From: Plicaturopsis crispa FD-325 SS-3
Taxonomy: Eukaryota > Basidiomycota > Agaricomycetes > Amylocorticiales > Amylocorticiaceae
Length of the DNA stretch: 64,000 nucleotides
Assembly (NCBI GenBank): GCA_000827205.1
Contig: KN832572.1
Coordinates: 1 to 64,000, forward strand
Direction: 5' to 3'
The notes beneath the pieces were generated by a model. It was given only the letters and a program-made list of their open reading frames with translations, was not told the origin of the DNA and did no database searches. Every line of letters begins with the position of its first letter. The first letter of the stretch is position 1. Made by a program: the position numbers and the translations under genes. Positions 8,181-64,000 of the stretch are shown one piece after another.

Positions 8181-9142
8181 CCTTCAAGTGGGGGGTCTCA
8201 ATCCCTGTTCGCAAACTGTACAGGCCACGTGGTGCTTCAAGCCCCGCGATTCGCGACATATTCAGACCCAGCACGTCGGAGTTACAATTCTAGTGCGGCG
8301 GCGACGGCGACGCGCGAGGGACGCGCCTGCAAAAATGTCGACTCTTTTACCACTCGACACAGCACATTTTGCGACAAGTTTGAGTGACGAAAGTTGCTCA
8401 GAATGACCGTCTAATGAAAGTCTTCGGAGTAGAATTTTAAAATTTGGTCCCATCCCTCCGAAGTAATGTCTCAGTTGGCAAGTTTGAAAGCATGAGGCCG
8501 AAAACAAAAAATCTGTTCCGAAGACTTTGCTCTATGCACATTTGAGAGTAGGACCCACATTTTATTTCGAGCAAAACGGTTGAGGGGAAGTTGATATAAC
8601 TTGACCTCGATGGCGGGCATTTGGGTGAGCATGTCGCGTTCAGGCGAGAAATCGTTGTACGTAATCACTCAATGCGCGCCCAAAGGCAGCCAAATGCCCG
8701 CCATCGAGGTCAACTTATATCAACTTCCCCTCAATCGTTTTGCTTGATGTAAAATGTGTATCCTACTCCTAAATGTCCATAGAGCAAAGTCTTCGGGACA
8801 GATTTTTTATTTTCGGCCGCATTCTTTCAAACTTTCCAGTTGAGACCCAACTGCGGAGGAACAGGACCACAACTCAAAATTCTGTTCCGAAGACTTTAAT
8901 TAGACTGTCATTCGGAGCAACTTTCGTCACTCAGACTTGTCGCAAAATGTGCTGTGTCAAGTGGTAAAAGAGTCGACATTTTTCTTGGTGGCGCGCTCGC
9001 GGTGGCGGGCGCGTCTTCACATGCCGAACTTTCGGCAAAGTGTAAAGCACGGCAAGGTTCGGCATTTCTCGTTATAGTACGTCGTGGGAATGTACGCTCG
9101 GGGCTTTTATTTTGGCAGGCGTTGAGACCCCCCACTTCAAGG
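8181..9142. mobile_element. Fold-back (long inverted repeat) element, about 0.96 kb
   Basis: The two halves are inverted copies of each other. The outer ends match: ccttcaagtggggggtctca at 8181 against the complement ending at 9142. Middle blocks pair 8335-8430 (cgactcttttaccac... and agtttgagtgacgaaag) with 8898-8983, and innermost blocks pair about 8580-8625 with about 8692-8737. That leaves a loop of about 65 nt (8627-8691). Both arms give the same chance peptide MSTLLPLDTAHFATS on opposite strands, which proves the inversion. Outer parts of the arms (8210-8330 versus 9000-9115) have diverged strongly. There is no transposase and I could not find a target duplication. It resembles a Foldback-type or hairpin MITE. 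Confidence 0.75.
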
Positions 9143-50400: not shown

Positions 50401-50901
50401 AGAGAAGGGTTGTGAGGAAAAATAGAGAGTATAATCCAGAATAATTCCTGCAGCCTCGTTTGCGCTTCAAAAAATGGGAAACTTGGTCGCAGCGATGTCG
50501 TGGGGCGTTGAAACCAGTAAACAAACCGGCGGACGAATGTTTGGCGAAATTGCGACCGCCGGTTGACATCCGCTGTTTGTTTGGTGGCGCCCACTTTGCC
50601 CTTCGCGCAGCACACCCATCTTCCAGGCTATCGCTGGCACCGTCGGGAACACAGTTTACACCACCAGGATGCTGAGAGCTCGCCGCTGTCGTCGTCGTCG
50701 GGACCGGCGAGTATTTGATGGAGGCGGACTTCAAATAACGGAAGCAACATTCAGCGTCTTGTCGTGGTGACTTGAACGGCTTTCTTGCGCCTCTTCTTCC
50801 GCTACGAGCTCCCGGATGTTCTGTAAAGGCCCGCAGAACTTGCGCAGTAGTCTCGGATCCAGCCGTTGTCGGAGGTTGAAAACACACGACTCAAAACCTC
50901 C
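50401..50901. other. Gene-poor flank of the repeat that hosts the inserted element
   Basis: No gene is supported. The last 80 bp (gtagtctcg...ccgttgtcggaggttg...gactcaaaacctcctac) resemble the complement of 57528-57600, marking a repeat shared with the hairpin-rich locus. Confidence 0.45.
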
Positions 50902-50903
50902 TA

Positions 50904-51929
50904 CAACGTCTGGTGCACTCAGTAAGAGACACCCCCCATCGGGTCACTTCAGGGGCGTCACGCCCCCAAAATGGTGCAAATTGTTACTTTCTGTGACTTC
51001 TGTCACTACCGAGCAAGGTGCGCGCGATCGGCACCGTGACTTATAATTAACGTTTAACGCTCGACGTTCAACGTTCAACACTGTGCTTATCAGCTGAGTA
51101 CAGGACGCGCAAAGGACGCGCACTATCTGGCTCATATGCTCTCTGATCCACTCGCTGGACAAGTTCCACATCTCGCTTCCTGGGTCTCGTCGTCTGCTGG
51201 ATCAAAACGCACCGGTAAACGCGACGCCCTGCTGTCCTCGATCTTTACGCGGCAACGAATGGCTCGGACGGTCCTCTCTCGTGCAAGGGCCTGATGCTTG
51301 GTGGCCTACGCACTTGCTGGTAGGAACGGAAATCGGGCTTCACAGACTCCGCAGAGGACGTTAGGTGGCAGTGGAGTTTGCGTAAAGGTGCGTTTACAGA
51401 GACTGGCAGTTTGAGTTGTACGCTAATCACGTCCTCTACCTGCTAGCTAGTGCTGGCTCGTCTCCACCCTCGTCGGCCGTCCTTTTCCGAGAGATGCCTG
51501 TCGTATGGGCGTTCCGAAACAGCTCGATGCCGCCCTGCACACCTCGCTCTCGCCATTTGCTGTTTCGACAACTCGGATCTCCGCATCACGCCTCGGGGTC
51601 TACGCCGCTGTTAGCCAGCACTCTCGGTATCGTCCACTTAACGGTGCTCGGAGTCTTGGCTGGCTGCGTACATGTTGGGCGTGTATTTAGCTCATGCGTG
51701 CATACCATCCATTGAATTTATTTCTTGACTACACGATATGGACATGTGCGGGATTGGTTTGTATGTACGTGCCGACAACGCGCTGTGCTTTCCATACGAC
51801 TTCAAGTGCACACTGCAAGTGCGGCCTGCCCGACGCCCGTAGGCGAAAATTCGGGTTACTGCATTTGGGCCGTGACACCCCTGAAGTGACCCGATAGGGG
51901 GTGTCTCTTACTAAGTACACCAGACGTTG
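50904..51929. mobile_element. TA-flanked terminal-inverted-repeat element, 1.03 kb, non-autonomous
   Basis: Terminal inverted repeats of about 68 bp begin CAACGTCTGGTG at each end (50904-50971 and 51862-51929), with about seven mismatches. They continue through gtaagagacacccc and gggtcacttcagggg. TA dinucleotides lie directly outside both ends (50902-50903 and 51930-51931), as expected for Tc1/mariner-type insertion. The related sequence near 57.53 kb lacks the insert (complement reads cctcctacatagtgctgcc), giving an empty-site comparison. There is no transposase. The TIR itself can fold (ggggcg...cgcccc). Confidence 0.75.
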
Positions 51930-51931
51930 TA

Positions 51932-52640
51932 GGAGTAGTGCTGCCGCTGATGTGAGGTGAGCTCAAGTTGACCTCAACTCAAATCAAGCGCATTACCTTA
52001 TTGGGCGTCTTGAGGTGCCTCAAGGTGAACCGACCTTGAGTTGCATCGCGATTTGATGACCGATTTAGAAAGCTCGAGAAATGTCGCGCGACGCGCCGTC
52101 GCGGGCAGCCTCTGGGCAGCCTGAGACCCTATGGGCTCGAGTGTGGCCTGCCAGTAACACTGTCAGATGTGTAGTATCATTATAACATGTAGCTCAGTGT
52201 TCCAACATTATTTTTCGCTACGCAAGTTGAAAGCTATAGGCGCTCCGCTGCTGTCCAAGAGTCAACTTTGTTCTGGAATCCGCGCCACTTCATTCACGGG
52301 GGTGGTCGGTCGTCCGACTGTCCACCATGGTATACATGACAAGTGGACGGGACTAGGGCTCCTGTTTTATCTTACCGCGCTAGAGGATATCGAGTGAAGA
52401 AAGAATTTTGCAGTGTTACAATTATCAAAACCGGCATTCTAGCACTAGGTGCTGACTTACGACCGGCCGTCAACGCGTCTAGGCTAAGGGCTGCCATCCC
52501 CCGAAAACATTGACCCAGATTGACAGTGGTGGACGCGGCGAGGGTCAACGGTACAATAAATGCATCTTGCAAGTCACCTCATGCAGTAGCCCTTGTGCAA
52601 AGGAACACGCACTTTCCCATAATTGTCAATGCAATGGAAC
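51932..52640. repeat. Right flank of the interrupted repeat, related to 57.28-57.53 kb
   Basis: tagtgctgccgctgatgtga at 51936 and aaggaacacgcactttccca plus aattgtcaatgcaatggaac at about 52600-52640 match the complement of 57500-57525 and 57297-57340. It also contains a perfect stem-loop at 52009-52024 (CTTGAGG/CCTCAAG). The order of the blocks is the same, so this is a diverged, inverted copy with different sequence in between. Confidence 0.6.
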
Positions 52641-53319
52641 CCGAGAAAGTCCTACACAGCCATTTACTCACCTCTTGGGCATTTCGGCTTGTCCGGCACC
52701 TTGCGCTTGCCTTCGGACCTTCAATTTTGCTTTGCTCACGCCCATTGCCGCCTCGGACGGCTTCCACAACTTTGGCATGCGTTGAGGCTCGTCATCGTCG
52801 TGCCTCGAGGCTCGCAAATTTCTATTTTTACACAATTCTCAAAAGCATTACACCGGGCCACGCCTGCCGTACCGCATTGAGAAATCGGTAAAAAAATTAT
52901 TACAATTGCGGTAGGGTCCTGTATGACCCTCTACGACATGGATATGCAGAATAAAAATAATTTCCACACCTGCGCAGTGCACAGCAGGTGCAGAATTGTG
53001 CAGGTGCGGGCGCGCATGCACTCACCCTCATTTCCTACATCCCCGATTGCAACCACGGAGACTGGGAGTAAAACCCAGTTGGGTCACGGTTGGGGAGGTA
53101 GGGAGAGTGTGAGTGTGCGCGTGCTGCTGTGGAGAGGGTGCACACACATGGAGTGGGAGCAGGGCCCTGGTTGGGCCCTCCCACACTACGGGCACCGCAT
53201 TACCGTGGAAGCGATGAGAAAGTGGGGCAGGCGACGTGAGAACGCCATGGGCGCGTCGTCGAAAGCACGGGATGCCCTGGGCAGCGTGGAGCTGGTGTAC
53301 ATGACACGGAACGGACGTG
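52641..53319. other. Gene-free sequence
   Basis: No exon or RNA gene is recognised. A short inverted repeat gggccc...gggccc lies at 53163-53179. Confidence 0.35.
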
Positions 53320-54859: not shown

Positions 54860-55310
54860 ACGCGGTGCGAAACAGTCGCAAAATATCGCAAATCATCGCA
54901 AATCACTTTTGGATTCGCGACGATTTTGCGCTGTGCTCTTGTCCCTCGCCGTTTTGCGTCGCGAAAAAAATATATTCATACTCTGGGGACCCGTTTGCAT
55001 GGTCCCCAAAGGCGCAGTAACAATCCGTGCAGTGTGGCCGGTAGAGGAGCCCGAATCGTGCTGGAAAGCACAAAGATCGAGCATTCCGAGTATCTGGAAT
55101 GCTCAATCTTCGTGCTTTCCAGCGCGATTCTGGCTCTTGCAATGGCCTCACTTCTTGGATCTTCATGGTAAATTGCACTACCATGTAAATAGGTCCATAG
55201 AACGCAAATATGATTTTTTCAGAATAAAAACTACCTGTGGAGGAGAGCGCGACGCGTAACCGTGCTCGAAAACGCGCTGAATGCATACTTTTCACGACTT
55301 TTGATTTACT
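54860..55310. mobile_element. Fold-back element with a near-perfect central palindrome
   Basis: The centre (55046-55142) is a long hairpin: gagcccgaatcgtgctgg, aaagcacaaagat and cgagcattcc on the left mirror ggaatgctcaatcttcgtgc, tttccagcgcgattctggctc on the right, with a loop of about 6 nt. Outward the arms are weaker but still related (gcatggt...aaaaaaatat on the left against its complement near 55165-55215). No coding capacity is apparent. It probably is a small hairpin MITE or an old palindromic duplication. Confidence 0.6.
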
Positions 55311-56900
55311 GACTCAAATTGACCCGTTCAAAAAAATTGAGACTTTGTGTGCACTACGTATGGATATATACGAGTGCGAAAATCATTTTTTCTAGCTATA
55401 TTATTGCCCTGTGAAGTGTGAGGAGGGCGCTCGACACTGTGCAGAGCCAGTTCGGGCGACGCCGGCGGAGTTTAAAATCCGCAAATCGTCGTCGTCGCGT
55501 TCTCTCGTCGTCGTCGCTGTCGCCCACATCGTTGCACGCTGTGCGCTGCATCCCTGTCTCACCCCCTGCAACTTTGCAGGGGGTATGCCGCTCCTCGTCC
55601 ATATCAGGTACGTTCATTCCTTCTTTTTTCGACCGCTGCACGTCGCGCTAACTGTTTTCTTTCTAGCCAGTTCCTCACAACCACCTCGCGCGTCCCAGCC
55701 GCTGCATTCGCGCACCGCGTCCAGCACGCTTTCCCCGCCCAGGCGCATTTGCGCACGCCAATGGAGATGACGGGTTAGACGTGAGGCAGAAGGGAGCAGA
55801 GGGAGCAGAAAGGCCGGGCGAGGGAATATGCCAGCAAACCGCCGTCGACGCCATGCGCCCTGCGCGTCCCGCTCCCCACGCACCAACATCCCGCTCCCGC
55901 TCCCATCTCGTCGCCGCTCCTCAACGCGCGCATCAACAACCCGCGCACCGCTATGCCAGCCCCGCGCACTCTTTAGCGCATCCAGCGCACAGCCGCGCTG
56001 CCTCGCTGTGCACGCCAGCACAGAGCCAGCGCCCACGCACCCGTGCGTTGCCGAGATATTAGGAGGGACGCAATGCCGAGAGGACGAGGGGGATGGGGCT
56101 GCAGCATCGCAGGGCGCGGCACCAACCCGGCAGACCGCCGTCTCGACGCCCTGCGCCCAGCTTGTCCCGCTCCCCATGCCCCATCGTCCCCCTCCTGTTC
56201 CCCTCCCGCTCTCGTACCATTCAGTCGCCCCTCCCCTGCCAGCGCACTGCCCACGCTATCCCCACATCCGCGCCAGCGCACCCAGCGCACGGTCCCAGGG
56301 CCATGTGCGCGCTTTCCCGGTGCTAGCGCGCTATCGCATCGCTCGCACCAAGATAACGGAGAGGCGCGGTAGAGAGTGGATGGCCAGCGCACCGCCATCT
56401 CACTCTCCGTGTACCCTCTCCTACTCCCTGCGCATACCCGTCCCACCCCCAACCCGCCAATGTTCCCTTGCCAGCGCGTCTCGCAGCGCCGCCTGCACCT
56501 GCCGCTTCCCAACGCATCCCGACGTCCACCGTCGAGCATGCCCCATCTGGCTGCCAGCGCCCCCACTTCCCTGCTGCCTCGTCGGAAGCGCAGGCCAGAC
56601 GCGCAGCCGTCTCATTGCTAGCGCAGGCCAGCGCATCTCGATAGAGAGCCAACGCGGGTTGCGCTGACGAGTGCGCCGGCTTCGATAGCGGCTCCGGCGT
56701 GCCTGCGCAACCCGCACAGTCAGCGCATCCTGACGCGTGCGGTGATGAGGGCGCTGGCTGCGCACCTCCACACCGCACAACCAGCACGGGCTCGCGAGCG
56801 TGAGGTGCGCGAGCAGGATGTGCGCCGGCCGCTCCCGTGTATACCAGCAACCCATAAACCCGGAAACTTTTGTATTCAATAGAATTAATAAATTTGTTCT
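55311..56900. repeat. Low-complexity GC-rich region built on 'gccagcgcac'-type motifs
   Basis: From about 55680 to 56830 the motif family gccagcgca / cagcgcacc / ccgcgcac recurs irregularly. Long open frames run through it on both strands at the same place (for example 55828-56667 plus and 56421-56927 minus), a mark of biased composition. I do not call any of them a gene. Confidence 0.6.
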
Positions 56901-57260
56901 TTTTTTCCAAGCAAGGTGTCTACGCAAGACTAAGTAAAGGAAGGGAGATAAATATGATAGAGAGGAACCATCCTAACGCGATAGACGGCACCGAACAAAA
57001 ATTCGCGTACAAGACAATCAGGGGTCAGAGCCCAAAATAAATGCCCGAAGCCTACCCGAGGAGAGGCGAGATTTGGGCGAGAGGCTCAAAGTCAATGCTA
57101 GGGGCTAATGGTACAAAAGCGGATGTCCGCGATATGCCCGAGGGAGCGCGGACAAAGTTCAGTCGGGCCTAGGGGCTATGGAGCTGTTTTTGGAAGCCAA
57201 AAAAGCGCCCGAGGAATGGTTTTGAAAATTTCCAAGTCCGAAAGCTAGCCCGCTGACTAA
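56901..57260. other. Unassigned sequence before the hairpin-rich locus
   Basis: The phrases 'gcccgagg' and 'aggggcta' recur several times in about 250 bp (57040-57220). No gene is seen. Confidence 0.35.
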
Positions 57261-57898
57261 TCAGATCCGGTTTGGCTGTAGATCGGATCAGCGCGTTCCA
57301 TTGCATTGACAATTATGGGAAAGTCCGCGTTCCTTTGCAATTATCTCACATCAATGGCTGTGCAAGTGCAAGCAGCGACGCGCAACAACGCGTCACGGCA
57401 CCCTCTGCCGTCGTTCCCAAAATGGAATGCCATCTCAAGGTGAATCAAGTTGGAATCACCTTGAGTTGCTTGAGATGCACAGCCACTTCATCTTGAGCTG
57501 ATCTCAACTCACATCAGCGGCAGCACTATGTAGGAGGTTTTGAGTCGTCGAAATTCAACCTCCGACAACGGATGGGGACGAGACTACTTGCGCAGAACGG
57601 ACAGCATTCTGCGTATCCAGCTTGCTTTCTCTATCGCGCACCAGCGACTCGGCCACGGGGACCTGCATCTGCGAGTGCCACTCGACACGGCCGCACTGGA
57701 CGCACGTAGCTATCCTCACGACGACGTCGTGCGAGGCCAATAAATGCTCTGCACTTGGGCAACCCTATGTCATCCAATATGCGCGGTCAGCAGTCCACGG
57801 GGCACGGGGAACAGACGCAAAAATATCGTTCCGCCGAATGGTTGTCATGACCTGTCAGGTCTGGGAATTTGGCAGTGGCTGAAGCCACTGCATTGTTG

Positions 57899-59920
57899 AT
57901 GGATGTTTATCCAGACAACTATATAGCCGTTCTCAGGACATTTCCCACGGCATCTTTTTACCTTTATACTTATCACACTACGCTTGTACGCTACATTGTC
58001 TCCCTATACATTGGGTCCGGTGTATTGCAGGCGCTTCAGATAAGTCAGAGGTACGCAGATCTTACACTTTTTTACACCGCCATCAAAGTACTAGGGACTA
58101 CAATGGTAGTACCGAGCACTTCTACTCCCCACAATGCATTTTCACCCCTCAATAGAGGGTTTTCATCCTATTCTCATGGGAGTAGACCTCCGGATGCCCA
58201 TTGGCATCCTACTGAGGTTTCGAGAACACTCGAAATTTACAACGTGCTTCTACATGCGCACGCGGACGACGAGGAAGAACTCGAAGTCATCCGAGAAGTC
58301 GACCCAATTTGGGCCGTCTTCGGGGAGCATCGCAGCCGATCGGCTGTCTGGGATGGTCAAGAGACCATACCCAACTACTTAAGAGGTAGTCGAGGACCTC
58401 GGATGGGCACCGATCATAGAGATCGTGCCCGATACGAGGAAGCAGTCGATGACTGCATTATTGAGCGACTGCGCATTGCTATTGGCAGGACGCGCGTCGC
58501 GCTGCAATCACGCAGACAGCTTGGAGCGGCTCGAGACATAAGGTCTCGAGAGATGTATAACGCAGGTCGTTACAATGGTGACGACACATTCACGATGACA
58601 GGCGTGAACAGGCGCTACTACACGCCTGTGGCGCATGGGACCACTGAGCGGTCTATCGGATTGCCGACGCCCTCCTCTCGGAGGAACGTCTCGACGACAC
58701 CGCACGGTGTCGCCGCTGACAGCGGTCGTCACACCGCGAACGACTCGCAAAATCTTCATAACGAAGATGTGGTACGATACCGTACGCCAGAGGGCGCATG
58801 CGTACTGCACCCAGCGGAGCAAGTACCGCCCACCCCGATGTCGCAGGACGACATAGTCCGGCGCGGTGGTAGAGCATCAGAGCTGCAATTGCAGCCCCGG
58901 CGCTCTCTTTCCCGAGGGGAAGGAAATGTGCCGTCAATCGGATGGGCGCAGTATGACAATCGAGTAGGCCGTGGGGGAATGTTATCTGCCATACAAGAGG
59001 CTGACGATCACTTGATCGTCGGAGAGGCGCAGGTGCGCGGCTCGAATGAGTCGACCGCCGCCGGGTTGGCGGTGGAGCACGATACACGCTACGGACCGAG
59101 GACATCAGCAGACGGCCACGCATCAATTGATGCAGCGAGCGGCAGCAGAGTACGTCGAGGGCAAGGCCGGTCCAGCTTGCTAGAAGTGCGAAAAGGCGGC
59201 ACAATAGTACCGCGCGTGTGGCACGGCGCAAATGCGCCGCACATGCCCACCATTGCAGGCAAAGAGTCGGTTATTCGTCGCAATGTGCGAGGGAATAGAG
59301 ACGCACCTGGACCTGGAGTCGATCAACTCCGCGCACCTGGCAGTGCGCCCAGCGAGAACCCAATCCCATCGTCGAGAAGCCAAGCTAGGTTGCAGGCGAG
59401 AGAAGCACGCGAAAGCGGCACAATAGTGCCACAAGCGCACAACGCACAGCCCACTGTTGTAGACGATGGATACGTTAGCCGTCGTAAGGAGTCAGCCAGC
59501 GATGACGCACCTCTGACCGGAATCCATCGACTCCGCGCACCTGAGAGTGCGCCCATCAACCCAGGTCCATTGTCGGAACCGCCAGCCGCAGCGCGCGAGG
59601 GAGAAGGACCAAAGGGGACGTCAAACGACGTCGGTGAATTGACCGCGATCGACGCTAGCGCAATTGCGCGCGTGAGCGAGTCCATCAACGATAGCGCGGA
59701 GCGGAGCCGCAGACGCGAGCGAGACACTCATAACGCAGACGCGTTGAGTAGAGCGGTAGATTGCGTAGGCAGGAGCTGTGCGAACGCCGACGACAGTTGT
59801 CGTGAGCGTCGAGACGCTGGGACGGCAAGGGACACGTCGTCTAACGAGTACAATAATTCGTTAGCGTATGACGACCGCACAGTCGTGCGAACACCTCATG
59901 CTGTACCGTTAATACATTAA
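57899..59920 (+). CDS. Uncharacterised 673-aa ORF embedded in the hairpin-dense locus
   Basis: One uninterrupted frame runs from ATG 57899 (MDVYPDNYIAVLRTF) to TAA 59920; an inner start at 58103 (MVVPSTSTPHNAF) is possible. An N-terminal hydrophobic part of about 60 residues is followed by an acidic helix-like part (ADDEEELEVIREVDPIWAVF), an Arg-rich part, and a long polar, disordered C-terminal half. That half holds two related segments of about 90 residues, marked by GTIVP then QLRAPGSAP and GTIVP then RLRAPESAP. No known domain is recognised. Lack of introns over 2 kb is unusual here. It may be a mobile-element gene, an orphan gene, or an ORF kept open by chance; its DNA is dominated by palindromes. 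Its 3' end faces the KDZ gene's. Confidence 0.45.
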   Translation: MDVYPDNYIAVLRTFPTASFYLYTYHTTLVRYIVSLYIGSGVLQALQISQRYADLTLFYTAIKVLGTTMVVPSTSTPHNAFSPLNRGFSSYSHGSRPPDAHWHPTEVSRTLEIYNVLLHAHADDEEELEVIREVDPIWAVFGEHRSRSAVWDGQETIPNYLRGSRGPRMGTDHRDRARYEEAVDDCIIERLRIAIGRTRVALQSRRQLGAARDIRSREMYNAGRYNGDDTFTMTGVNRRYYTPVAHGTTERSIGLPTPSSRRNVSTTPHGVAADSGRHTANDSQNLHNEDVVRYRTPEGACVLHPAEQVPPTPMSQDDIVRRGGRASELQLQPRRSLSRGEGNVPSIGWAQYDNRVGRGGMLSAIQEADDHLIVGEAQVRGSNESTAAGLAVEHDTRYGPRTSADGHASIDAASGSRVRRGQGRSSLLEVRKGGTIVPRVWHGANAPHMPTIAGKESVIRRNVRGNRDAPGPGVDQLRAPGSAPSENPIPSSRSQARLQAREARESGTIVPQAHNAQPTVVDDGYVSRRKESASDDAPLTGIHRLRAPESAPINPGPLSEPPAAAREGEGPKGTSNDVGELTAIDASAIARVSESINDSAERSRRRERDTHNADALSRAVDCVGRSCANADDSCRERRDAGTARDTSSNEYNNSLAYDDRTVVRTPHAVPLIH

Positions 59921-60013
59921 ATTCTGGGATCATTCCCCCCCCTCTATGTATTAATCCTAGAGTGGCCCCAGATACCAGTTTCTAATGTATTAGTTCTGGC
60001 TCCTAATGCATTA
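59910..60013. repeat. Four spaced copies of a palindromic decamer, TAATRYATTA type
   Basis: TAATACATTA (59910-59919, containing the ORF's stop codon), ATGTATTAAT (59946-59955), TAATGTATTA (59983-59992) and TAATGCATTA (60004-60013) lie within 104 bp. The accompanying phrase agtggccc also occurs twice (59961 and 60022). They follow the end of the ORF directly. Confidence 0.65.
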
Positions 60014-60407
60014 TTTCTCTCAGTGGCCCTTCCCCTGCCTTTGGCCGGCTTCTCGGCTACTTAGCTCAACCTGTCGGACCTTGGGCTGGGCTAGAAATCT
60101 TGTGCACAGTGCCGTGCCACCGTTCACAGGTTCCGAATACCTCGGAACCTCAGCACTTCACCTCATGCTGTAGCCAAATTACAAAGGATTGTGGAATATT
60201 CCATTGGACTTGATGCAACGGTTCCCGAGTACCTGCTACACTGCCACCCACCAAATTTTCGGCTTGTAGCCACCCTCGGCATCCTCTACAAGCCGTTCGG
60301 ACACTGAAATACATTGCCCATGGCCCTGGCCTCCTCGGGCGCATTCCCTTTCGGTACCCACCCCCCATAAATCCTGCAAAAATCATTTCTCTGCAAAATA
60401 TTCATCA
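60014..60407. other. Noncoding spacer between the convergent ORF and the KDZ gene
   Basis: No gene is seen. It contains the strongest stem-loops of the locus (60128-60150 and 60260-60295) and a 12-nt perfect palindrome TGGAATATTCCA at 60192-60203. Confidence 0.5.
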
Positions 60408-63400
60408 TTAAACCGCTATTTCGTACAAATTTTCCATGAACTCTTCCTCAACCGTACGGGCAGCCGGCGCGTTCTCCTCCTCCTCCTCCTCCTCCTCCCC
60501 CTCCTCCTCCATGCCCGCGCTCTCCCCCTGAACCTCGACCTCGCTCCAAACATCCTTGAACTTCTGCGCGATCCCCCGCAGCACCAAAACTTGAGAATCT
60601 GCAAATGCGCGCACACCCTCTGCATGCGCGGCCTCCAGATCCCCCGCCCCCTCCCTACGTCCGATCCATCCCTGGGCACGGTGCTCAAGGGAGACCAGCA
60701 CGCGCCGCATCTCCTCCTTCACGAGCAGCACCTCCTCCTCCCAACGCCGCGCGCGCGACCACGCCTTGGCCCACTCCACCCGGAGCGCGTCGCGGACATC
60801 CGCGTTGTCAGCACCGTTCCAAATCCACGAAACGGATACCACTCGCGTCCCCTCTCCGTGGCCAACGCCGACCGTGTCGCTATCCGGCCGCTCCCTTTCC
60901 GCAATGGCCCCCTCCCGTCGATCGCGCGCCTCTAATCCTCGGCGCCGAGCATGCATAGCCTCGCGACGCCGTGCACGCCGCTCAACCTCCTCTGAGTCCT
61001 CCATGCATCGGCAGTCGTTCCGCGTCAGCTCTCGGAGAGCAATGCTAGAGGCGTCCCCTCCAGCAAGGCCGATCTTTGCCCTCCGTGCGTCTTGGTACTT
61101 CGCGGCGTGTAATTGTATCTTGGTCTCGTTGCGGGTAATGAGAGTCCGGGTGCGCGTTGCCATGGCCTGGTGTCTGGATTCGAATTGCTTATATGTGAGG
61201 TAGCGCGACTTGATGTGCAGCTGTGTGCGAAGGCTGTCCAGTGCCGACGCGCACTGGGCGTCGCGTAGCTTGTCCTCGATCTCCGCTAAACCGGCGGTGC
61301 ACCCCCTCAGCTGCTCCGCCATCAGCGCTGAGGGGAGATACAGAGCGACGTCCTCGGGTTGAACCGTAGACGCAGCGGCCGTGGGGTTGTTCTCGAGCAG
61401 CCGGAGGGCGGCGGGCATGTAGGTGGCCTGCAGCGTTCGGAAGCGCGTGATGTTGCGCGTTAGCCGGGTGCGCAACTGGGTGATGTCGGTTTCCTGCGAG
61501 CTCGTAAGGTTGGTGCGGAGGCGCGAGGCTTCAGCACCAGCGGCCGCCCAAGGGCCCGAGCCCTCTATACGAATGCGCCGTCTGCCAAATCAAATCAGTA
61601 AATACGCGGTGTGCCCACAGCCAATAGGGTGCGTACTGTTGCTCCTCTAGATCAAGCCCTGCAATGATGAACCCGCTGGGGGTGACATTGTGCAGGGACG
61701 GTGCGCCGGATGCGGCAAGCTCTGCGTCGTGGCGCGCAAGGTTGAGGCGAACATCCGCCTCCGTGAGCCCGGACTTCGGCAGATGGTACGGGTTGGGGCT
61801 GCTCGCGTCAGCCTCGAAGGCGAGAACCATCGCCCTCCACTCCTCTACATCTCGGGCCTCCTGAGATTCCGTAAACGCGTCGAACGCGGCCTGGTGCTTT
61901 ATGCGCTCCGGGATCGACGCTACCAGCTTCTTCTTTAGTGATTTGCCTTAACAATCACCGTTAGACACCACTATCACAGAGGACAGCAGCAGGCGTACTC
62001 ACCAAGCCCCACGAGCTTCTGCCAATTCCAATAGCCCCAGTGGTCGTCCAATGTATCATGCCGAGACCCGGGCCCCATCTCCCGTGTGCTGGTGCACACT
62101 GGGCCCATGTTCGCCCACGCCCTCTCGATGCCCTCGCCATCCGTGCGACCCGCACCCGCCAGCCATTCAAACGAGTATGTGATTTGGCATTTGACGATAT
62201 GGGAGTGGATGTGGAGTTTCGGGATCGCGTACCAAAAAATAGCCGACGGAACGATGAGGCGGACAACAGGCGGGAGAGCTGCGAGGCGGGCCTCCAGATT
62301 GCGGTGCCATTGGCAGGCGATGTCGTATGACACCACCGTTGGCTGCCGGGGGTGCTGATGCTTGAACATGGAGGCAAAGGCCCAGTCCATATTGCAGTAT
62401 CTGTTGTGAAGCGTTAGCGCATGCTGCGGGTGTCAATAGCGACGGTGCGCACCTCTCCCCTTTCTGAAGGTCGACAACGGCATTCCGCCCCACAAACTCG
62501 TGCCGACTGCATAACCCCAGACCCGCGGCAGTCGAGGCATACCCAGCCTGCACTCGGTCGTTGGCGTGGTCGACGGCAGACAGCCCGGTGCACGTATTGA
62601 TCTAAACTAACCGTTAGTTCAATTAGCGCTATCAGGGTACGCGGCCACTAACCTCCTTCTGTTCACCCTGCGTCGATACCCACTTGCGATATATCGCATC
62701 GGGTACAAAATACGACCATCCGCACCCCAGGCCGGGGTCGCGGTGCTCACTTGAAACCAGCCGCCGCTTCAGCCGAAAGCACGCGTCAAAGGCAACGAAC
62801 AGGCGGTATAGAAACCTGGGACAGAGCGCGTTAGCATCCTTTTATTGCCGCAAGAAACCGAACACAACGCACCCTCGCTCCTTTGGCGCATTCTCCCAGT
62901 CGTCTGGCAGATTCACGGCGGGGTCGGGGCACGCAGGGCAAACCACGGCCAGCTCCCCTGCCCTTGTCCCCTCGACGCCCGATTCATCGTGGCCCCGCCC
63001 CCCGCGCTTAACCATCTTCAAATGTCTCCACTCTCGGACTATGCGGAGAACGCTCCGGTATCGATCCTGGGCCGTTAGGACGAAGCAATTAGCACACACT
63101 GTGGGCAGCCGGGGCAAAGGCAACTCACAGGAGATGGGCTAAGCCCCGTATTATCCGTTAACTTTTCGAGGGCCCCGTAGTAGTCGTAAGCCGATATTTT
63201 ACCCTGTAGAGTGGCGAGGTGGAAGTGCTCGAGCATTCGAAAGGTGCAGGCCGTAGCGGGCGTGTCGTGCGTAGCGGGATACCACCCAAACCGAAGCAAT
63301 TGCTGGCGATAGGACCCGGCGTCAACCCCGTCGACGCATTGGCAGTAGTCCACCGCGACGCGGTGGATGCCGTTGGTATGCACAACGACAAACGACTCAT

Positions 63401-63924
63401 TGGCGCAGTGCGAGTTTGGGCAGGGCGTGCGTGAGTGATTACCCAGTTGCACGCGCAGCCCAAGGTCACGGAGCGACGACCGTACAAAGCACGACCCTGT
63501 CCAACGCTTGAGGCACTGGTCAGCGCGGGGAATGGTCGCTGCGCACAACGGAACGCACCTCAATGACATCAAGGGGATGGCGCGCGTGGGCCGACACGCA
63601 GCACTCCAAACAGAGAAGCTCCAGCGAGGAGCAGTCCAGACACCGGTACGCAGGCCGCCTCCCTGTGCTGCCAGCGGGGCACGCAGGGCACCGATCCCCA
63701 GTGAAAAATCCGCGACCCTCCCTGCGAAGGAATTCCGCCAGGTACTCGTCTCGGTAAGGCATCCATGCTTTGAGGGGGAAATCCTGCAGTATAGTGAGCG
63801 CTATGCATGGCTGTGAAAGGTATGTCGACTCACCGACGCAGAATAACGCTTTGCCCCAGGCCTCCATGTAGTACTTTTTAAAAACGACCTGGTCCTTACC
63901 ACAAACTGTTTTACAAAACACCAC
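60408..63924 (-). mobile_element. KDZ (Kyakuja-Dileera-Zisupton) DNA transposon, transposase gene
   Basis: Minus-strand, multi-exon gene. N-terminal exons carry the CxC2-like cysteine cluster: CPACPAGSTGRRPAYRCLDC and LLCLECCVSAHARHPLDVIE (about 63560-63720), then SFVVVHTNGIHRVAVDYCQC. The KDZ transposase core follows: SRHEFVGRNAVVDLQKGER, MDWAFASMFKHQ, TVVSYDIACQWHRNLEARL (catalytic-type Asp near 62325), IPKLHIHSHIVKCQ and EGIERAWANMGPV. C-terminal exons (60408 to about 61870) are charged and coiled-coil-like with ARRWEEEVLLVKEEMRRVL, an acidic run and the stop at 60408. KDZ elements are large cut-and-paste transposons expanded in mushrooms and often linked with TET/JBP genes. The catalytic core looks uninterrupted. 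The true start may lie beyond the window edge; terminal repeats were not found. Confidence 0.88.
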
Positions 63925-64000
63925 CCAAATTTGTGGTGGCCCACCACCGGTGAGGCACCAGCTCGTTTTTAAAAAAGCGTCAGCTAAGATTCCTAACCGA
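63925..64000. other. Right edge of the window, probable continuation of the KDZ element
   Basis: The frame of the first transposase exon stays near-open toward the edge, and a short inverted repeat (ggtggcccaccacc at about 63936-63949) is present. The element's 5' end is not resolved here. Confidence 0.35.

Follow-up and report, generated by a model that had tools for sequence, protein, structure and literature searches.

The closest published parallel to the locus described here comes from the mitochondrial genes of Nematomorpha, whose coding sequences hold palindromes (PMC6649704). The account given there suggests that arms are converted by template switching, ascribes a preponderance of the protein-restrictive codon phase among short repeats to codon composition, and stops short of a sufficient mechanism for how perfect stems arise. 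The origin of perfect stems was also raised as a question for RNA genes in PMC8794818, which ties to template switching an enrichment of four-nucleotide loops (56% versus 42%) in hairpins with instantaneous compensatory changes. At double-strand breaks in yeast, inverted fold-back insertions, mostly of ~5–34 bp, are described in PMC11724301.

We analyzed a stretch of 64,000 nucleotides (the window) from contig KN832572.1 of Plicaturopsis crispa FD-325 SS-3 (GCA_000827205.1), read on the + strand. It contains a hairpin-dense open reading frame (ORF) at 57899–59920 (+), which encodes 673 amino acids from the ATG at 57899, or 683 from a TTG at 57869, and is open beyond chance expectation (277 codons was the longest frame in 300 dinucleotide shuffles, over the three forward frames). 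A profile search at E ≤ 1 found no Pfam domain in the ORF; there was no significant match to NCBIfam, to PDB sequences (best E 0.95) or to PHROGs (a single match at E 0.56), and tblastn at E ≤ 0.01 against plasmids and phages found nothing. Scans of IMG/VR and GTDB with six short peptide patterns each, which could therefore detect close relatives only, returned none for the protein. These sources, none of them a fungal-genome collection, made up the homologue search. Rfam covariance models gave no match at E ≤ 1 across 56500–61000. Structure prediction without an alignment gave a mean pLDDT of 37.8, with helical ends and a featureless middle, and the protein is probably disordered.

Adjoining the ORF on the opposite strand is the gene region of a Kyakuja-Dileera-Zisupton (KDZ) transposase (60408–63924, −), made up of several ORF pieces, with a KDZ domain in the ORF at 61974–62390 (−; PF18758, E 1.1e-35) and a CxC2 cysteine cluster at 63075–63572 (−; PF18803, E 4.9e-43). 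A fragment of this gene, searched against IMG/VR and GTDB for fungal contamination, matched nothing significantly, and the search for a TET/JBP gene was confined to the eight ORFs run against Pfam. No inverted pair of at least 16 nt encloses the hairpin-dense ORF in 56000–64000; the window stops just past the transposase gene, so the right end of an element would fall outside it. An element that took in both genes would be expected to have termini (TIR or CA..TG) and a target-site duplication of 7–8 bp around them. We infer that the ORF may belong to a KDZ element; it is probably accessory to a fungal DNA transposon of the KDZ type, either as part of it or as a neighbour. The KDZ DNA transposons of fungi in PMC12730594 and PMC12810828 share the KDZ and CxC2 domains with the neighbouring gene, and the word "hairpin" is absent from the main text of both papers.

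An earlier, sequence-only reading had counted 22 perfect inverted repeats (arms of at least 6 bp, loops of 0–8 nt, the definition kept here) in the ORF and its immediate 5' edge. Our recount of 57873–59920 gave 24, with arms of 6 bp in 13, 7 bp in seven and 8 bp in four, against 4.18 ± 2.3 (maximum 11) in 200 dinucleotide shuffles; the shuffle means were 1.07 for arms of at least 7 bp and 0.24 for at least 8 bp, close to the rough random expectation given before (4–5 for 6-bp arms and about 0.3 for 8-bp arms). Within the ORF proper (57899–59917), 23 inverted repeats compared with 5.42 ± 2.25 (maximum 14) in 300 synonymous-codon shuffles that kept the protein, 3.74 ± 1.84 (maximum 9) under codon permutation and 4.01 ± 2.09 (maximum 12) under dinucleotide shuffling. 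Shuffled controls with similar counts had been named as what would refute the pattern, and no shuffle of the three kinds reached 23 at arms of at least 6 bp. The remainder of the window looked ordinary, as had been asserted: the mean z was 0.04 (SD 1.21, maximum 3.5) over 58 overlapping 2-kb windows starting outside 56–60.5 kb, and 9.7 for 58001–60000 in the same scan (30 shuffles per 2-kb window). The transposase gene region was near normal (11 versus 7.2 expected). Short perfect inverted repeats in the ORF are thus about six times as frequent as chance would give.

This leaves chance, composition, codon usage or the copying of one hairpin with a negligible share of the probability. Nothing speaks for it at arms of at least 6 bp, where the most extreme of 300 shuffles gave 14 against 23 observed; at arms of at least 8 bp, the three in the ORF were equalled by the top shuffle of each of the three kinds. 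The arms are unrelated to each other by eye, as the sequence-only reading held, and the one clear internal duplication holds just three of the 24 hairpins. The shuffles, the window scan and the unrelated arms together refute this explanation.

Along the locus, the first of the reported 8-bp sites (57873, 58530, 58695 and 59003, all four where they had been placed) proved to be a 9-bp hairpin with a 2-nt loop (57872–57891) that ends 7 nt 5' of the ATG. A hairpin group follows at 58192–58456, with perfect arms at 58192, 58218, 58333, 58353 and 58442 and a bulged 10-bp stem at 58405–58430; the 150-nt window at 58351 folds at z −6.8 (+) and −7.3 (−). The densest part, 58501–59250, holds 12 perfect inverted repeats where 1.9 are expected (16 per kb), and the C-terminal part (59251–59920) holds six where 1.4 are expected, none with arms of at least 7 bp. 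The three 14-nt palindromes (58333, 58882 and 59120) lie where reported. Both examples of nesting that had been named are present, but nesting overall is not clearly beyond chance; the spacing of the hairpins shows no regularity by eye. Five perfect inverted repeats lie in the 5' flank (57264–57871; 1.2 expected) and two in the 3' flank (59921–60300; 0.7 expected). Five of the eight flank sites listed before fit the definition (57672, 57717, 57849, a hairpin with 9-bp arms at 60128–60150 and a 12-nt palindrome at 60192–60203), whereas 57434 (6-nt loop, 12 of 13 positions paired), 57497 (6-bp arms, 10-nt loop) and 60260–60295 (a 10-bp stem with a 16-nt loop) do not. Inverted repeats at 57377 and 57395 were not on that list.

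The 5' flank also carries CTCAAG/CTTGAG four times in 64 nt (57434–57497), and a second, broken copy of parts of this flank (50841–52643, −; matching 57292–57339, 57499–57528 and 57529–57594) has such a hairpin cluster too (four in 79 nt, 51962–52040). Cut-and-paste elements generally have subterminal inverted repeats to which the transposase binds. The two clusters are consistent with repeats of this kind; within the ORF, however, no motif evidently common to the arms emerges (the most frequent 6-mer appears six times in 2 kb), and transposase binding would account for the flank alone. As an explanation of the hairpins at large we consider it highly improbable.

Upon closer inspection of the arms, enrichment was confined to lengths of 5–9 bp. 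The ratio of observed to expected exact arms was 1.02 at 4 bp, then climbed through 2.1, 4.3 and 9.6 to 18 at 8 bp, and no perfect arm longer than 9 bp occurs in the ORF region at loops up to 8 nt. The excess of arms of at least 6 bp was 7.5-fold at loops of 0–2 nt, 6.7-fold at 3–5, 3.5-fold at 6–8, 1.5- to 1.7-fold at 9–20 and 0.65- to 1.4-fold at 21 to 200. Loop length peaked at 4 nt (nine of 20 stems, versus 0.67 of 3.47 expected, in an overlap-filtered scan; P = 0.008), so that the ORF has the short-loop, tetraloop-biased perfect stems that are a feature of template-switch products. None of 14 tetraloops is of GNRA or UNCG type. On the + strand only, loops are rich in A (28 of 70 nt, 0.40, versus 22% in shuffle hairpins, P = 0.0007; 36% versus 26% at arms of at least 5 bp, P = 0.004), an enrichment that E. 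coli hairpins (50 kb scanned) lack; in the ssRNA phages Qbeta, SP, MS2 and GA, both A and U tend to be abundant in loops. Perfect stems exceed expectation more than decayed ones do (11 versus 0.93–1.07 expected, 10- to 12-fold, at arms of at least 7 bp; 10 versus 3.5, 2.9-fold, for single-mismatch stems with at least seven pairs). We noted that A-C and G-T together make up 12 of the mismatches in 20 single-mismatch stems with at least six pairs, six of 10 with at least seven pairs and four of eight in the overlap-filtered scan, and that A-G was enriched as well in a cruder count; decay of stems by transitions is suggestive only. A comparison of G-U with A-C pairs as a test of RNA selection was dropped: the four ssRNA phages are enriched equally in both (pooled 1.80 and 1.83), and the test is powerless since it fails where RNA structure is real. 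If anything, the figures for the ORF (3.7 and 2.2; 4.4 and 2.3 in another count) lean to coding-strand RNA.

Folding was then compared with that of ssRNA phages. Fold energy was far below that of protein-preserving shuffles on both strands (z −7.3 on + and −8.9 on −), with mean z of −2.31 (+) and −2.44 (−) in 150-nt windows over 58001–60000. Mean fold z was −2.34/−2.21 for the ORF and −2.87/−2.48 for MS2, both well below shuffled controls; because MS2 is nearly symmetric too, equal folding of the two strands is weakened as proof of a DNA-level cause. When 40-nt blocks were permuted such that local hairpins were kept (300-nt windows), the mean z was −0.33/−0.19 for the ORF (n = 11), −2.34/−2.40 for Qbeta (n = 10) and −2.67/−1.96 for MS2 (n = 9). 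With 50-nt blocks in 500-nt windows (n = 5), the ORF gave −1.28 on the + strand and −0.24 on the − strand. The excess folding of the ORF is mostly that of local hairpins, and hierarchical structure is weak or absent.

Next, we considered how the hairpins sit with the coding sequence. Synonymous shuffling of the ORF left 5.1–5.5 hairpins; simulated imposition of hairpins blind to coding left 4.87 ± 0.45, and synonymous-only imposition, which overshot to 32 hairpins rather than 23, left 4.07 ± 0.47 (12 simulations each). Synonymous change alone is insufficient for the hairpins, and amino acids bear part of the burden. The most protein-restrictive codon phase, in which third positions pair with third positions, was found in 23 of 47 hairpins at arms of at least 5 bp (P = 0.02 versus one third, codon permutation predicting equal thirds) and in 12 of 23 at arms of at least 6 bp (P = 0.05; P = 0.016 versus the synonymous-only simulation); in ssRNA phage genes it was found in 30 of 99.

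The only clear internal duplication in the ORF is a tandem one (59153–59584, +), with copies at 59153–59382 and 59370–59584. Between the copies, pN/pS was 0.86, with clustered differences (runs P = 0.013), so protein change in the duplicated part is near-neutral and constraint weak. Three stems are matched in both copies. The arms of these stems, which were picked by eye in well-aligned blocks, differ at four of 38 positions, compared with 68 of 161 elsewhere (P = 0.00014), and their loops at three of 14. All four arm differences affect one side of a stem and turn a pair into an A-C mismatch; none is compensated on the other side, and synonymous codons differ about as often in arms (two of nine) as elsewhere (six of 24). 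A 7-bp hairpin at 59224 is confined to copy 1, within a 15-nt net length difference where the alignment is ambiguous.

With somewhat less than even credence, we lean to rounds of local fold-back or template-switch DNA synthesis acting on a gene under loose constraint; both the cause and its concentration at the ORF we infer from the pattern of the hairpins. A single strand would fold onto itself around a loop of ~4 nt while the DNA is replicated or a break is repaired; the polymerase would copy a few bases off its own strand and then rejoin the original template, and each such event would yield one perfect inverted repeat with arms of 5–9 bp. We propose that in-frame events could persist and pile up because the protein tolerates replacement. 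This reading draws on the greatest excess at short loops, the 4-nt peak and the steep rise with arm length, on the near-equal and local folding of both strands, on a burden beyond synonymous change with the third-with-third phase not avoided, on the greater excess of perfect over single-mismatch stems, on the pN/pS between the repeats, and on the tetraloops of PMC8794818 and the short insertions of PMC11724301. The mending of quasi-palindromes by template switching, one cause proposed by the sequence-only reading, fits best with the tests on loops, strands, codons and locality, but leaves confinement to this stretch unexplained; a local cause would be required, since the rest of the window, stretches without an obvious gene included, shows no such excess. 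Counted against fold-back synthesis are the A-richness of + strand loops, which it alone does not predict, the moderate + strand signal with 500-nt windows, unlike the 300-nt test, the better conservation of the eye-picked shared-stem arms, more like upkeep than turnover, and the fact that the sole candidate for an event (59224) is ambiguous both in alignment and in direction. A locus-bound factor that repeatedly copies arms within this one gene, and so diversifies the protein by in-frame inverted micro-copying, would be a further step that we consider unlikely; candidates would be a dedicated polymerase, a single-stranded stage that persists, or the transposition and gap repair of the element itself.

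A strong rival, in our judgement only somewhat less probable than fold-back synthesis, is that selection favours local hairpins in RNA of the coding strand or in a single-stranded DNA stage. The transcript would be a chain of small tetraloop hairpins, with gains such as stability, packaging or escape from silencing. The A-rich loops of the + strand, the tetraloop peak, the restriction of the pattern to the ORF and its flanks beside normal neighbours, the + strand fold energy under protein-preserving shuffles, the similar arm spectrum of Qbeta coding RNA and the sparing of the three eye-picked stems in the repeat all speak for it. Yet the − strand is equally significant, GNRA and UNCG loops are lacking among the 14 tetraloops, one-sided arm differences went without compensation, synonymous codons in arms are not better kept and amino acids carry part of the burden. 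The folded transcript or single-stranded stage proposed earlier thus has the A-rich coding-strand loops on its side, but little or none of the nested, hierarchical folding that Qbeta and MS2 show. For the third cause proposed there, a source of small RNAs, nothing in the analysis gave support, Rfam included. Lenarviricota include fungal viruses as well as ssRNA phages, and the ORF might have been copied into DNA from a segment of an RNA virus, such as one of this group, with hairpins inherited from a compact RNA genome. Among the comparators a clear excess was seen only in three of the four ssRNA phages (Qbeta, SP and MS2), which agrees with such an origin; the ORF, however, is without their strong hierarchical folding, has no Pfam domain or significant PDB match and is followed by a DNA-transposon gene, and we regard this origin as very unlikely.

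Were the hairpins mutational, one gene would record dozens of template-switch events and offer a natural hotspot for the origin of perfect stems; a gene-targeted mutator would be a eukaryotic diversification system acting by fold-back synthesis. Were they selected, a coding sequence denser in perfect short hairpins than Qbeta RNA would represent a new kind of structured transcript.

The density of inverted repeats in the ORF (11.7 per kb) exceeds that of E. coli rRNA, phiX174, 50 kb of E. coli and all four ssRNA phages, of which Qbeta is nearest (7.7, versus 5.6 in SP, 4.8 in MS2 and 2.9 in GA; z 9.0, 5.9, 3.8 and 1.5, respectively). E. coli 16S and 23S rRNA, tried as positive controls, were without excess (1.9 and 1.7 per kb). 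The phages resemble the ORF in that short perfect hairpins are over-represented in their coding sequences (clearly so for three of the four), in the arm spectrum of Qbeta and in near-equal folding of both strands (tested in MS2), and differ from it in the hierarchical folding of MS2, Qbeta and SP (SP in the 500-nt test) and in their lower density.

The sequence-only reading knew of no described family with this design. That holds for the searches made here. Related ideas have been published twice (PMC6649704 and PMC8604942). In Saccharomyces, as described in PMC8604942, template switching likewise perfected arms of 7–11 bp (one of 16) in genes and changed amino acids; those events are scattered (30 significant genes in 4304 orthologous sets) and placed on a tree, whereas 24 repeats crowd into 2 kb here. 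The RNA hairpins of PMC8794818 share the perfect stems and the preference for tetraloops, but in RNA genes of conserved function rather than an ORF. The yeast break insertions of PMC11724301 are alike in being very short inverted copies; the local case described has a 41-nt loop and an insertion at a break, while in the ORF the excess is at loops of 0–8 nt, in a frame kept open. With the nematomorph genes of PMC6649704, the ORF shares many perfect and few imperfect inverted repeats within coding sequence, above the codon-shuffled level (23 versus 3.7 and 5.4). It differs in lying next to a transposase gene on the chromosome of a fungus, not among the respiratory-chain genes of a mitochondrial genome, in having arms of 5–9 bp, whereas those of Nematomorpha are tens to hundreds of bp long (repeats up to 284 bp), and in its codon phase: the protein-restrictive phase, depleted among the long nematomorph repeats, is the commonest in the ORF.

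The sequence-only reading had described the open reading frame (ORF) at 57899–59920 (+ strand, 673 codons) as rich in perfect inverted repeats, and the excess held up against shuffled controls. Counting perfect inverted repeats with arms of at least 6 bp and loops of 0–8 nt (hereafter hairpins), we found 24 in the ORF with its immediate 5' edge (57873–59920), versus 4.2 expected from dinucleotide shuffles. With arms of at least 7 bp there were 11 (1.1 expected), and with arms of at least 8 bp, 4 (0.24 expected). When synonymous codons were shuffled with the protein kept, the mean fell to 5.4 hairpins and the maximum in 300 trials was 14, versus 23 in the ORF. The arm-length excess set in at 5 bp and reached 18-fold by 8 bp; no perfect arms longer than 9 bp were found at loops of 0–8 nt in 57873–59920. 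The loop-length excess was greatest up to 8 nt, being 1.5–1.7-fold at 9–20 nt and 0.65–1.4-fold at 21–200 nt. Tetraloops predominate (9 of 20 overlap-filtered stems, or 14 of the 24 hairpins once loops of 0 or 2 nt are opened to 4). At arms of at least 5 bp, hairpins span 33% of 57873–59920 versus 11% in shuffles. Loops were A-rich on the coding strand only (0.40 versus 0.22, P 0.0007), and hairpin loops from 50 kb of E. coli showed no A bias.

The pattern had been said to continue into the flanks and to set the ORF apart from ordinary genes of the window, and both observations stood. The 5' flank (57264–57871) holds 5 hairpins versus 1.2 expected and the 3' flank (59921–60300) 2 versus 0.7, and in 2-kb windows the remainder is ordinary. 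The next-highest window, at 56001 (z 3.8), overlaps the 5' flank; others were raised at 1001 (z 3.5), in the tandem repeat near the start of the window, and at 52–55 kb (z 2.8–3.5). The GC-rich tandem array at 611–1685 (units of ~27 bp) also yields hairpins, the first 2 kb containing 10; these, in contrast to those of the ORF, probably derive from copied units. A 138-bp self-inverted stretch at 55023–55160 (77%) resembles a small foldback element and may account for part of the raised folding at 54–56 kb.

By the same count, the ORF carries 11.7 hairpins per kb, versus 7.7 in Qbeta, 5.6 in SP, 4.8 in MS2, 2.9 in GA, 1.9 and 1.7 in E. coli 16S and 23S rRNA, and 1.5 in phiX174; 50 kb of E. coli gave 2.2 per kb, with no 2-kb stretch exceeding 11. 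The folding-energy check proposed from sequence gave z = –2.34/–2.21 (+/– strands, 150-nt windows), nearing MS2 (–2.87/–2.48), but the likeness to these single-stranded RNA phages fails at the next level of folding. Upon permuting blocks that hold whole local hairpins, so that lost stability reports structure beyond them, phage RNA lost much stability and the ORF little or none (300-nt windows: ORF –0.33/–0.19, Qbeta –2.34/–2.40, MS2 –2.67/–1.96). With 500-nt windows and 50-nt blocks, the ORF gave –1.28/–0.24 (n = 5 windows), and the + strands of Qbeta, SP and MS2 gave –3.81, –2.80 and –3.49; the two tests concur on the phage contrast, not fully on the ORF + strand. Because block permutation costs so little, the extra folding of the ORF resides mainly in a series of small, mutually independent hairpins.

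The frame codes for a protein, or once did, since the longest open stretch across 300 dinucleotide shuffles of the region was 277 codons versus 673. Codon position 1 is G-rich (0.376) and T-poor (0.137). GC at third positions (0.545) lies below the 0.625–0.75 of eight other ORFs, four of them pieces of the region of a KDZ (Kyakuja-Dileera-Zisupton) transposase and four host-like ORFs of the window. Lysine is scarce (5 of 673 residues), a domain search returned no recognized domain, and structure prediction gave a low-confidence model. Were the hairpins built by synonymous change alone, synonymous shuffling should restore the permuted-codon count; it left 5.1–5.5 hairpins, above the 3.7–4.0 of permuted codons. 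Simulated imposition of hairpins blind to coding left 4.87 ± 0.45, similar to the real ORF, and synonymous-only simulations left 4.07 ± 0.47, below it, and overshot to 32 hairpins. All of these gaps are modest. The third-with-third codon phase, most restrictive for proteins according to passages of PMC6649704, is not depleted but the commonest in the ORF (23 of 47 at arms of at least 5 bp, P 0.02).

An internal tandem duplication (59153–59382 and 59370–59584) bears on both protein and stems. The copies differ at codon positions 1, 2 and 3 by 21, 29 and 25 of 71, with clustered differences and pN/pS = 0.86; hence the protein is weakly constrained, at least here. Three stems lie at corresponding places in both copies. 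One is perfect in both, with an altered loop; the other two carry one A-C mismatch per copy at different pairs, and so neither copy shows compensatory change. A fourth stem, at 59224, occurs in copy 1 only, within a net 15-nt length difference. Arm positions vary less between copies than positions elsewhere (4/38 versus 68/161, P 0.00014), although the stems compared were selected by eye from blocks that align well, and for synonymous codons the arms show no better conservation (2/9 differ versus 6/24). Across the ORF, perfect stems with arms of at least 7 bp reach 10–12 times expectation, and those with one internal mismatch and at least 7 pairs 2.9 times.

Judging by its interrupted host-like reading frames and by a KDZ transposase with a CxC2 cysteine cluster, the window appears to be part of a fungal chromosome, probably from a basidiomycete. 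The ORF faces this KDZ transposase gene (60408–63924, – strand) and may lie within the KDZ element, whose right terminus would fall beyond the end of the window. A 19-bp inverted repeat (63875–63893/63957–63975, 95% complementary) lies near the start of the transposase reading frames, and the ORF end (59892–59930, CACCTCATGCTGTA...) recurs 267 bp downstream at 60159–60197 (72%). Parts of the 5' flank recur on the opposite strand at 50.8–52.6 kb, which makes the flank part of a dispersed sequence. This second copy is broken, being interrupted by a 1.04-kb element (50898–51935) whose 72-bp terminal inverted repeats share 92% identity and which shows no clear target-site duplication by eye. CTCAAG and CTTGAG are clustered, in inverted order, in each of the two flank copies. 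Subterminal binding repeats are a feature of such transposable elements, and the clusters look like putative examples; they probably explain the flank hairpins at 57434–57497, separately from those of the ORF. Elsewhere in the window are a large imperfect palindrome (8331–8983, 653 bp, 83% match to its own reverse complement), an inverted pair of about 340 bp with 91% identity (13566–13892/15601–15941) that may bound a 2.4-kb element, and direct repeats in four pieces (24328–27205/31773–34555, 68–82% identity), possibly duplicated genes.

How might the ORF hairpins have arisen? We tentatively lean towards fold-back or template-switch synthesis, which would generate local perfect hairpins, because their arm length, loop length, perfection and near-indifference to strand and codons fit such a process. 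It leaves unexplained the normal DNA a few kb away and the A-richness of loops on the coding strand only. Both points favor selection for coding-strand hairpins, and the lower divergence of arms between the copies of the internal repeat points the same way; we regard this explanation as a strong rival, somewhat less likely than fold-back or template-switch synthesis, and a mixture of the two is possible.

A literature search, going by paper titles, found no hairpin-dense fungal ORF of this kind. The survey in PMC13155455, as its available sections describe it, covered no arms shorter than 10 bp and so would have missed this class. For fold-back or template-switch synthesis, the local features of the ORF hairpins match what the consulted portions of three studies describe: template switching in yeast genes (PMC8604942) and in RNA genes (PMC8794818), and fold-back synthesis at yeast breaks (PMC11724301). 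In nematomorph mitochondrial genes, the authors suggest, in the same passages of PMC6649704, that such conversion keeps coding palindromes perfect.
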